Shown piece after piece: positions 1,802-62,330 of a stretch of DNA of 64,000 nt (positions within the stretch are counted from its first letter, which is position 1; each line of letters starts with the position of its first letter). The position numbers and the translations under genes are program-made. This DNA comes from an uncultured Pelagibacteraceae bacterium (GTDB lineage: Bacteria > Pseudomonadota > Alphaproteobacteria > Pelagibacterales > Pelagibacteraceae), in the NCBI GenBank assembly GCA_902613065.1, contig CACMFU010000005.1:1-64000 (forward strand), read 5' to 3'. The notes beneath the pieces were generated by a model. That model worked only from the letters and a program-made list of their open reading frames with translations, did not search any database and was not told where the DNA came from.

Positions 1802-2416
1802 CTAGTATTGTTGGGTAAATGCAATAATTATTGCTATAAAAATAATTACACAAGCTGAAATTGTATTAATAATTTTTGGATTTGCCTTAATCCAAATAAT
1901 TAACTTGTTAGCTAAGATAGCATATCCAACTAAAGATAAAAAATCCAATACAACGTAAGTTGTAATTAAAATAATAAATTGAACAATATAATTGGAATTA
2001 AAATCAATAAATTGTGGAAATATAAATGGAAAAAACATCCATGCTTTAGGACTTGTTCCCGCAACTAAAAAACCATCTTTATAAAATGAAAAAAATTTTT
2101 TATCTAAAATATCTTTTGTATTTATATCTTTAGGTCTCGATTTATAAATATCATAAGCGAGATATGTTAAATAGGCGATACCTAACCATTTTAAAGTATT
2201 TAATATTGTTGGATTGTCCGACAAAAAAGATCCAATAACAAATATCACAAGAGTTGCCTGAATTATATTTGCGGTTACATCTCCTAACGCAGTCCAGATA
2301 CATTTTTGAACACCATAATTCATTGAGTAAGAAATAATTACAATTCTAGGTGTGCCTGGAGTTATAAACATAAAAATGATAATCTGTAAAAAAAGGATAA
2401 AATCTAAGGGAAGCAT
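1802..2416 (-). CDS. LysE/RhtB family exporter
   Basis: 204-residue integral membrane protein with about six hydrophobic segments. Near the N-terminus is FITPGTPRIVIISY, matching the conserved proline-glycine motif of LysE/RhtB amino acid exporters, and a GXXXX-TALGDVTAN segment follows at about 40-50. Family members export lysine, homoserine, threonine or related compounds; the substrate here is unknown. The start ATG at 2416 has no free Shine-Dalgarno. The nearest AGGA lies inside a 10-bp hairpin just upstream (2423-2469), suggesting translational control. Transcribed alone, divergent from the DUF2805 gene. Confidence 0.85.
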   Translation of the reverse strand: MLPLDFILFLQIIIFMFITPGTPRIVIISYSMNYGVQKCIWTALGDVTANIIQATLVIFVIGSFLSDNPTILNTLKWLGIAYLTYLAYDIYKSRPKDINTKDILDKKFFSFYKDGFLVAGTSPKAWMFFPFIFPQFIDFNSNYIVQFIILITTYVVLDFLSLVGYAILANKLIIWIKANPKIINTISACVIIFIAIIIAFTQQY

Positions 2417-2422
2417 TTCAAG

Positions 2423-2469
2423 GATAGTCCTAAAAAACCGGGAGCTAAAGATGGCTAGATAGGACTATC
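2423..2469 (-). promoter_or_regulatory. Hairpin leader before lysE-family gene
   Basis: Perfect 10-bp inverted repeat GATAGTCCTA (2423-2432) / TAGGACTATC (2460-2469) with a 27-nt loop, ending 6 nt before the exporter start codon. In the leftward RNA the right-hand arm contains UAGGA, the only Shine-Dalgarno-like sequence near the AUG, so it would be buried in the stem. It could be a cis-regulatory RNA for the exporter or a DNA operator in the divergent spacer. I do not recognise it as a known riboswitch class. Confidence 0.55.
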
Positions 2470-2536
2470 TAAAAATGATAATATCATAAGGATACTGATT
2501 TGCATTAAAATAATATTTAAAATTTATTGAATTTTC

Positions 2537-2833
2537 ATGAAAAAAAGTCACAGACCTACAACCAGAGTAAAGAATCCTGAGCCTCCTTTGGAGAGTCCAG
2601 ATTGGGTTATATGGGCAGCATGGGCAGATCGGATCACTTTTGAAGAAATTGAAAAAAAAACTGGTAAAACAGAAAGTGAGGTTATTAAAATAATGAGAAG
2701 ATCCTTAAAGCCATCGTCATTTAGACTTTGGAGAAAAAGAGCAAACTCACAAAGCATAAAACACAGAAAAAAATTTGAATACTCAAGAAAATTGATCAAA
2801 TCAAAAATCAATAAAAACGATTACTTGCTCTAG
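2537..2833 (+). CDS. DUF2805 / TIGR03643 family protein
   Basis: 98-residue basic protein. It has the family's recognisable core: a WAAWADRITFEEIEKKTG segment (about residues 27-44), then EVIKIMRRSLKPSSFRLWRKR (about 48-68) and a lysine-rich tail. The arrangement resembles a small helix-turn-helix followed by a basic arm, so nucleic-acid binding is possible, but the function is not established. The family is widespread in marine bacteria. It is followed 32 nt later by a glutaredoxin gene in the same direction. Confidence 0.8.
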   Translation: MKKSHRPTTRVKNPEPPLESPDWVIWAAWADRITFEEIEKKTGKTESEVIKIMRRSLKPSSFRLWRKRANSQSIKHRKKFEYSRKLIKSKINKNDYLL

Positions 2834-58255: not shown

Positions 58256-59125
58256 TTACTCTACTTTTTGATCAATATTTCCGAAAAATTTAAAAAATTC
58301 ACTATCTGGTGAAAGTATCATTGAAGTTTCGCCACCAATCAAAGCTTTTTGATAAGCTTGCATAGCTCTATAGAATGCGAAAAATTCAGGATCTTGTCCG
58401 AAGGCATCAGCAAAAATCTTATTTTTCAAACCATCACCTTCTCCTTTCATAATCTCGGATTTTTTTTGCGCATCTGCAAGTATAACTGTTACCTCTTTAT
58501 CAGCAGTTGAGGTAATTGTTACTGCCATCTCTGCACCTTTCGCTCTAAATTCTTTTGCTTCTCTTTCTCTTTCAGTTTGCATTCTTCTAAAAATTGCGTC
58601 ACTATTTGCTTGTGGAAGATCTGCTCTTTTAATTCTTACATCAACAATACTAATACCAAAATTTTCTGCTTCATTATTTACACCTTCTTGAATTAATGAC
58701 ATTTGTTTTGTTCTATCTTCTGATAAAAGTGTTTGTAGTTCTTGCTGACCAAGCACGTTTCTTATTCTAGAATTTATAATTGTAGCTAATCTTGATCTTG
58801 CAACTCTTTCATTACCAACAGATATATAAAATTTAAGTGGATCAATTATTTGAAATCTAGCAAATGCATCAACAATTAATCTTTTTTGATCTGATGCAAT
58901 TACTTCCTCTGGTGGTGTATCAAGATTTAAAATTCTTTTATCTAAGAATACAACGTTTTGTATAAATGGAATTTTAAAATTAATTCCAGGTTTAGAAATA
59001 ATTCTTTTTGGATCACCAAATTGAAGTACTATTGCTTGGTTAACTTCTTTAACTATAAAAACTGAAAAGTAAATTGTTGCAGCAATTATTATTATTATTG
59101 GTAATAAAAATTTTCCAGCTTTCAT
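58256..59125 (-). CDS. hflC: Band-7 (SPFH) protein HflC
   Basis: 289 residues. One N-terminal membrane anchor (about 5-24) precedes an SPFH domain opening VKEVNQAIVLQFGDPKRII. Coiled-coil regions and a C-terminal segment FFAFYRAMQAYQKALIGGETSMILSPDSEFF follow, all typical of HflC. With HflK it forms the periplasmic cage around FtsH hexamers and modulates membrane-protein degradation. It follows hflK with a 1-nt gap. Confidence 0.94.
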   Translation of the reverse strand: MKAGKFLLPIIIIIAATIYFSVFIVKEVNQAIVLQFGDPKRIISKPGINFKIPFIQNVVFLDKRILNLDTPPEEVIASDQKRLIVDAFARFQIIDPLKFYISVGNERVARSRLATIINSRIRNVLGQQELQTLLSEDRTKQMSLIQEGVNNEAENFGISIVDVRIKRADLPQANSDAIFRRMQTEREREAKEFRAKGAEMAVTITSTADKEVTVILADAQKKSEIMKGEGDGLKNKIFADAFGQDPEFFAFYRAMQAYQKALIGGETSMILSPDSEFFKFFGNIDQKVE

Positions 59126-62025: not shown

Positions 62026-62035
62026 GAATAATTTA

Positions 62036-62063
62036 TTGAATCTATTGAATTTGGTTTTATATT
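62036..62063 (+). promoter_or_regulatory. Candidate promoter of the tmRNA gene
   Basis: Rightward TTGAAT (62036-62041) and TATATT (62058-62063), spaced by 16 nt. Predicted initiation is near 62070, which agrees with the inferred 5' end of the acceptor half of the permuted tmRNA. A second TTGAAT at 62045 is too close to serve. Confidence 0.45.
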
Positions 62064-62070
62064 ATTAATG

Positions 62071-62330
62071 TTGGTTTTCCAACTATGACGATAAACGAAT
62101 TTCGTAATAACCATTACGGACGTGGGGGCAGTACCCACCACCTCCACCATTTTCAACTTATGGGGGTGAATTAGGATCGACGGATGACTAAAAGTTATTC
62201 TTTCGTTCGGTATTGTTCCGCCGTGAAGGGCTAATTTATAAATGCTAACGAAAGTTACGCACTTGCAGCTTAATTAATTTATTAATTAAGTTACGGGGTC
62301 TGGGGCACCTGGCAACAGAACGCCCCTTAA
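62071..62330 (+). ncRNA. ssrA: Circularly permuted two-piece tmRNA
   Basis: The acceptor half comes first. Its T-stem is GTGGG/CCCAC (62122-62126, 62134-62138), its acceptor 3' strand is CACCTCC (62139-62145), and ACCA is encoded at 62146-62149. A 12-nt linker follows, then the coding half starting GGGGGTG at 62162 (GGATCGACGG motif). The acceptor halves pair over 7 bp with a G3-U70 wobble, the alanine-tRNA identity signal. The tag frame at 62244-62273 reads ANESYALAA then TAA. A GGGGC/GCCCC stem (62302-62326) closes the coding half. Outer ends are approximate. This permutation is typical of Alphaproteobacteria. Confidence 0.92.

Follow-up and report, generated by a model that had tools for sequence, protein, structure and literature searches.

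Introduction

In the IS10 RNA-OUT/RNA-IN pair and in type I toxin-antitoxin systems, the loop of a stable hairpin pairs with a translation start, and Hfq is not essential. Most genes of these antisense RNAs lie opposite or adjacent to their targets.

The Chlamydia small RNA IhtA is trans-encoded, and its loop 1 occludes the start codon of the mRNA of hctA, a lysine-rich, histone H1-like protein, according to the accounts in PMC4355289 and PMC3469542; the same accounts give a transcript of 107 nt with three stem-loops and a functional interaction of 7 nt. SAR11-type bacteria are described in PMC13198564 as having relatively few transcriptional regulators. From marine bacteria of this type, the rhtB RNA was reported by Meyer et al. 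in 2009 as a bulged hairpin with about 1250 representatives, located mostly before rhtB but in some cases before proC, livM or livK, with a terminator-like U tract in about half of them (PMC2704228). Its function was left open in that description, which proposed a regulatory role, a conserved terminator or an inverted repeat (PMC2704228). Literature searches for the element and for SAR11 small RNAs or basic proteins turned up no later work on it; supplements and most subscription journals lay outside the scope of the search.

A copy of this hairpin lies in a 64,000-nt stretch of DNA from an uncultured Pelagibacteraceae bacterium (the window). Its fold, strand, promoter and distribution were analysed by computation, and an unlinked gene encoding a small basic protein is proposed as its target.

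Fold and family of the hairpin

The following features of the window were used (coordinates refer to the whole stretch).

2423-2469, minus strand: hairpin RNA, rhtB motif, RF01814; predicted to start at 2469 or beside it, 47 nt long
2410-2487, minus strand: full extent of the RF01814 match; 77.1 bits, cut-off 55
2460-2469, minus strand: 5′ arm of the lower stem, 10 bp; 9 of its 10 pairs are included in the pair counts
2423-2432, minus strand: 3′ arm of the lower stem; contains AGGA (2428-2431)
2453-2456, minus strand: 5′ side of the inner helix, AGCC; partner 2436-2439
2436-2439, minus strand: 3′ side of the inner helix, GGUU; partner 2453-2456
2440-2457, minus strand: antisense segment, 18 nt, including the 13-nt apical loop (2440-2452); complementary to Shine-Dalgarno (SD) sequence, spacer, start codon and codon 2 of a basic-peptide gene
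2433-2437, minus strand: U run; five extra A-U pairs predicted with an A run 5′ of the target SD, past a GG bulge
2478-2486, minus strand: extended -10 promoter TGATATTAT; its end lies 8 nt upstream of the hairpin, position conserved in relatives
1802-2416, minus strand: rhtB, LysE-family exporter (Pfam LysE, E 2.2e-23); usual, not obligatory downstream neighbour
2537-2833, plus strand: divergent DUF2805/TIGR03643 gene; found upstream in 144 of 150 copies

The minus strand from 2469 to 2423 reads GATAGTCCTATCTAGCCATCTTTAGCTCCCGGTTTTTTAGGACTATC and forms a perfect 10-bp stem around 27 nt. The stem ends at 2423, and six bases (2422-2417) separate it from the ATG (2416-2414) of the gene at 1802-2416. 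This geometry, including the AGGA in the 3′ arm, had been given exactly in the original prediction, and the assignment of the downstream gene to the LysE family was borne out by Pfam. An inner 4-bp helix (AGCC/GGUU), which closes a 13-nt apical loop (AUCUUUAGCUCCC), is added to that description here. The predicted fold of 2400-2500 has -23.1 kcal/mol; 200 dinucleotide shuffles averaged -13.3 (sd 2.6), and not one was as low (z -3.8).

Comparison with Rfam, which the original prediction had suggested, returned RF01814 ("rhtB") with an E value of 1.4e-13 for the whole window and an alignment to model positions 1-83 of 83; the match is full-length and above the curated cut-off. The element had been put forward as undescribed, and is a SAR11 candidate RNA already published in 2009 (PMC2704228), with the same hairpin and the same usual neighbour as in the published description.

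Among 33 distinct hairpins the lower stem was paired in 100 % of cells; 11 cells were U-G or G-U on the minus strand (C-A on the opposite strand) and none was unpaired. Two pairs had changed on both sides; a lack of such compensatory changes had been named in the original prediction as grounds for rejecting it. In a stem shuffle control, three of five measures were never reached, and two were reached by 30 of 500 shuffles. By these comparisons the hairpin is an RNA structure under selection. A phage attachment site or phage-borne element was also considered and dropped: the 18-base loop core had no exact match in viral contigs, and the target region had no match in a phage collection. Elsewhere in the window, positions 62032-62329 carry an ordinary alphaproteobacterial permuted tmRNA (RF01849, 227.8 bits).

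Promoter, strand and transcript start

Of 189 distinct upstream sequences, 180 had an extended -10 pattern (TGNTANNNT) whose end lay 6, 7, 8 or 9 nt (69, 51, 59 and 1 cases) ahead of the first stem base; the other nine lacked it. Base shuffles gave 2.4 of 189 on average and 8 at most; on the reverse strand, no 4-nt window exceeded 44 of 189. Upstream sequences of copies without rhtB kept the extended -10 at 6-8 nt in 23 of 25 distinct cases. Because this distance is conserved, transcription probably begins with the first base of the stem or one beside it; a start inside the stem, the other ground for rejection named beforehand, is not where the promoter points. Judged from sequence alone, the element thus has a promoter of its own, as a trans-encoded base-pairing sRNA should.

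Promoter position and wobble pairs are what decide the strand (the co-change of loop and target described below cannot), and by both of them the RNA strand is the minus strand, as had been chosen originally. A U run of at least five T follows the hairpin in 64 of 150 copies. It is absent in the window, so the hairpin may there belong to the rhtB mRNA, as its 5′ part, and not to a transcript of its own.

Genomic context and distribution

Context was available for 150 copies, which are 130 distinct ones by the stretch from 40 nt before to 15 nt after. In 122 of them rhtB lies directly downstream, 4-14 nt off by its BLAST-estimated start. An AGGA is present in the 3′ arm or spacer of 104 of these 122 copies and lost in 18 (AGGG in 12, none in 6), where the arms still pair. 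The remaining 28 copies have no rhtB directly downstream; when two copies ending within 61 nt are left out, the count is 26 of the 148 with at least 150 nt of downstream sequence. Those 26 are followed by proC, by a glutaredoxin gene, by another binding protein, by a convergent gene, or by a first ORF 200-600 nt off, and what follows the hairpin on its 3′ side varies among 22 distinct copies without rhtB. The constant association with one gene class that characterises a riboswitch was thus not found.

Of 200 relatives from 31 genera, 95 had a match to RF01814, and all 95 belong to a single genus. A pattern of stem arm and loop matched 294 of 399 genomes of this genus and 53 of the 58 that are at least 90 % complete (reversed pattern, 0); 294 is a lower bound, since in two near-complete genomes without a match the hairpin is present, its internal loop being shorter. 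Thirteen genomes without a match were looked into and five gave a DUF2805 locus: two with the hairpin and its shorter internal loop, one cut by a contig end and two diverged. In G073 and G224 the target is present, and the diverged DUF2805 locus has no hairpin.

Three further observations concern hairpin-like sequences. A Flavobacterium match (L081) was discarded as a chance match with no hairpin. A contig in a Cytophagales MAG (L056) carries a SAR11 locus and is probably misbinned. A sense resemblance to the loop (UAGCUCCCGG) is seen at the start of rhtB (window 2400-2416 and relatives; AUGCUUCCCUUAG or AUGCUCCCCCUAG) and is probably a coincidence of a Met-Leu-Pro start.

Loop complementarity and proposed target gene

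The complement of the loop reads GGGAG-CUAAAG-AUG-GCU, i.e. a Shine-Dalgarno sequence, a spacer and a start codon. A 15-mer of it (GGGAGCTAAAGATGG) was searched with up to two mismatches in eight genomes and gave 2-8 matches each besides the element, 34 in total (reversed, 0). Twenty-two matches were read. Six of them, each from a different genome, are the start of the same peptide gene; in the two remaining genomes, G004 and G063, a contig breaks off at or near that gene. A second start-site match (GGGAGCTTAATATGG, two mismatches; L169, G004:C7:4375-4389) has a plausible SD and the ATG of an 87-aa ORF, and is a possible second target in this one genome; further targets are possible among the 12 unread matches. 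Within the window, the strongest of 57 starts reached -23.1 kcal/mol in an interrupted duplex (ORF 58256-59125), and 860 ORF starts on related contigs had a mean of -9.9 kcal/mol (sd 4.5). The five strongest of these 860 (-40.7 to -45.9) were rejected as targets, being the opposite strand of the element itself (three looked at).

In the genome of the window (G000) the target is a mini-gene at G000:C7 66616-66711 (L164:1501-1596) that encodes a Lys/Arg-rich peptide of 27 aa; one A-to-G difference from the loop complement gives a G-U pair. The gene sits between the gene of an AMP-binding enzyme and carD, and in two single-contig genomes it is about 250-260 kb away from the hairpin. By eye it consists of a TTGACA box, a leader hairpin (CGAATC..GATTCG), an A run, GGGAGCUAAAGAUG, the Lys/Arg-rich frame and a terminator-like hairpin. 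SD, ATG and Lys/Arg-rich frame were present in 60 of 60 genomes read (17-35 residues; more than half K+R was required, and 0 of 60 were dropped), and for this reason the gene is taken as coding. The codon-position test was uninformative, with 28, 29 and 30 minor cells at positions 1, 2 and 3. No Pfam or NCBIfam family matched two forms of the peptide, and no Rfam family reached its cut-off at the G000 locus. A 34-nt target pattern occurred in 88 of the 200 relatives, in the same single genus (1 of 31) as RF01814; a shorter pattern matched 281 of the 399 genomes of the genus (reversed control, 0). At 18 carD loci of other families, no Lys/Arg-rich ORF was found in flanks of up to 1.5 kb.

Some features of this region were recorded separately. 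One CarD (L159:500-1357) has a long Lys-rich N-terminal stretch and adjoins the Lys-rich peptide gene. Genome G295 has two target starts on opposite strands of one contig (G295:C13:4014 and G295:C13:22704), for which an amplification chimera seems likeliest. Contigs end at or close to the peptide gene in the assemblies G063, G004, G001, G037, G113 and G300.

Both partners were found in 70 of the 121 genomes of the genus among the 200 relatives, the element only in 25, the target only in 18 and neither in 8; the genus-wide patterns gave 218, 76, 63 and 42 of 399, respectively. The 26 genomes without the target pattern in the smaller set (the 25 with the element only and one with neither) comprised 21 without carD, three whose contig breaks off at the target or close to it, and two in which the target is there and its third codon has diverged. 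A promoter/UTR pattern for missing targets returned nothing in 15 genomes and was probably too strict. Incomplete assemblies explain the gaps that were looked into, except for the two diverged DUF2805 loci without the hairpin.

Co-change of loop and target

All 399 genomes were scanned on both strands with one exact pattern, which catches every U-for-C loop and every A-for-G target. It matched in 16 genomes: in 13 at both partners, in G066 and G367 at the target and in G310 at the loop; these last three have no match at all for the other partner. Among the 218 genomes with both partners, 13 combine a U loop with an A target, and none shows this change on one side alone. When the letters were read from the listed rows of 148 genomes, 139 were C/G (G378 included), nine U/A and none mixed. 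The A state, found in 11 of 53 rows, requires four changes on a carD tree of 53 genomes and 474 columns (3-4 across bootstrap trees), at least two of them forced by well-supported branches, and a U loop was read in one or more genomes of each of the four A-state groups. An intermediate with a U loop and a G target would still pair. A G-U pair likewise remains after the one-sided changes noted in the 14-nt core from SD to AUG, which lie on the target side in G000 and G099 and in the loop in G053 and G084. A class of targets starting with AUGCC has a fixed mismatch after the AUG and is an exception to pairing.

Over 51 genomes, each loop with its own target gave a mean of -35.3 kcal/mol against -33.8 (sd 0.2) for permuted pairs, and 0 of 2000 permutations were as low; without the A-class genomes and G378 (41 genomes), 1 of 2000 was as low. 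The genomes are related, and these permutation figures overstate their independence. U loops favour A targets (-33.3 over -31.3), and C loops favour G targets (-35.4 over -30.5). In G378, shortening has affected both partners, and their own pair has no energetic advantage; a reading of the joint shortening as compensatory was dropped, since nothing is gained in energy. The complementarity to an unlinked mRNA is thus conserved and co-changing, as expected of a trans-encoded sRNA.

Proposed mechanism and alternatives

From structure, strand, promoter position, complementarity and co-change, all of them read from the DNA, we propose with a probability of roughly 0.8 that the hairpin is a trans-encoded antisense RNA which blocks translation of the Lys/Arg-rich mini-protein. 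Transcription would start with the first stem base or immediately beside it, and the RNA would be a single hairpin exposing an antisense segment of 13-18 nt. In the cell this segment would pair with SD, spacer, start codon and codon 2 of the unlinked peptide mRNA, exclude the 30S subunit and thereby repress translation. The duplex of 18 bp with its further A-U pairs should need no chaperone. Hfq was found in 0 of 5 SAR11 genomes (controls, 5 of 14) and ProQ in 0 of 5 (controls, 1 of 14), two of the five being single-contig genomes and 99-100 % complete; this is not the setting of an Hfq- or ProQ-dependent sRNA. The position of the hairpin in the rhtB leader is frequent but dispensable.

The original prediction read the hairpin as a riboswitch or translational switch in cis, the stem hiding the ribosome-binding site of the exporter until a ligand or protein opens it. 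The close spacing of rhtB in 122 copies and the AGGA in 104 of them fit such a switch, which is nevertheless improbable because 26 of 148 copies have no rhtB directly downstream. Most of the distinct upstream sequences of such copies keep the promoter, and 18 rhtB-linked copies have lost the AGGA. The strongest constraint, moreover, falls on the loop, which mirrors an unlinked start, is accounted for by that mRNA partner and co-changes with it. Somewhat easier to accept, though still clearly on the unlikely side, is a double role, in which the trans-acting antisense RNA would serve also as attenuator or leader of rhtB in cis, and the peptide mRNA would perhaps control rhtB as well. The hairpin followed by a U run, the rhtB start right behind it in most copies and the terminator-like tract given for about half of the representatives in the description of PMC2704228 agree with this; U run and rhtB are each dispensable, which does not.

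The co-change taken alone fits equally well a shared motif: the opposite strand of the hairpin (CCGGGAGCUAAAGAUGGCU in the RNA hairpin) is identical to the target start, and the same protein or RNA could bind both. The plus strand does have GGGAG, 6 nt and AUG, though in the window these open an ORF of three codons only (MAR*). What makes a shared motif highly improbable is that the conserved -10 faces the other way and fixes the 5′ end, with far fewer matches per 4-nt window on the reverse strand; that no conserved plus-strand promoter is seen 3′ of the hairpin, where copies without rhtB are variable; and that the stem wobbles to G-U on the minus strand only. An operator or other inverted-repeat site in the DNA between the divergent genes, which had been offered as the alternative to a switch, has in its favour a near-perfect inverted repeat in an intergenic region, and the authors of PMC2704228 allow for inverted-repeat functions in their description. 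It would give no role to the wobble pairs of a lower stem without a single unpaired cell, to an inner helix with G-U pairs or to a conserved 27-nt spacer antisense to an mRNA start, and there is hardly any likelihood left to it.

The preferred reading, an antisense RNA acting in trans on the peptide mRNA, leads to a more tentative suggestion about the peptide, which we hold at somewhat less than even odds. By its composition alone, the peptide may be histone- or protamine-like. It might be a mini-histone, protamine-like or RNA-binding factor that condenses the SAR11 genome or ribosomes and is silenced in growing cells by the chaperone-free antisense RNA; this would be a dormancy circuit like that of IhtA and hctA, of independent origin in a free-living, streamlined ocean bacterium and kept genus-wide. 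An orphan RNA family of 2009, present in 53 of 58 near-complete genomes of a marine genus, would gain a specific partner and a mechanism, and an antisense RNA working without Hfq or ProQ on a histone-like mini-protein would open post-transcriptional control and nucleoid biology in these bacteria to direct test.

Comparison with known systems

The element is best classed as a known RNA family for which a target is now proposed, and its kind would be that of trans-encoded antisense sRNAs. Compared with the 2009 description of RF01814 in PMC2704228, the target gene, the co-change in trans and the promoter at the start site are added here. IS10 and the type I toxin-antitoxin systems differ in linkage, as the hairpin and its target gene are unlinked in the present case. 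The antisense relation of type I systems is present by sequence; the peptide is basic (Lys/Arg-rich), where type I toxins are usually hydrophobic. The nearest functional analogue is IhtA/hctA as described in PMC4355289 and PMC3469542, in which the loop of a trans-encoded RNA covers the start codon of a basic-protein mRNA, as is proposed for the present pair, and for whose logic the present pair would offer a second case. Unlike IhtA in these accounts, the rhtB RNA is one hairpin of 45-48 nt, with a predicted 18 bp over SD and AUG and the gene of a peptide of 17-35 aa as putative target; the comparison is one of architecture only, and no homology is claimed.
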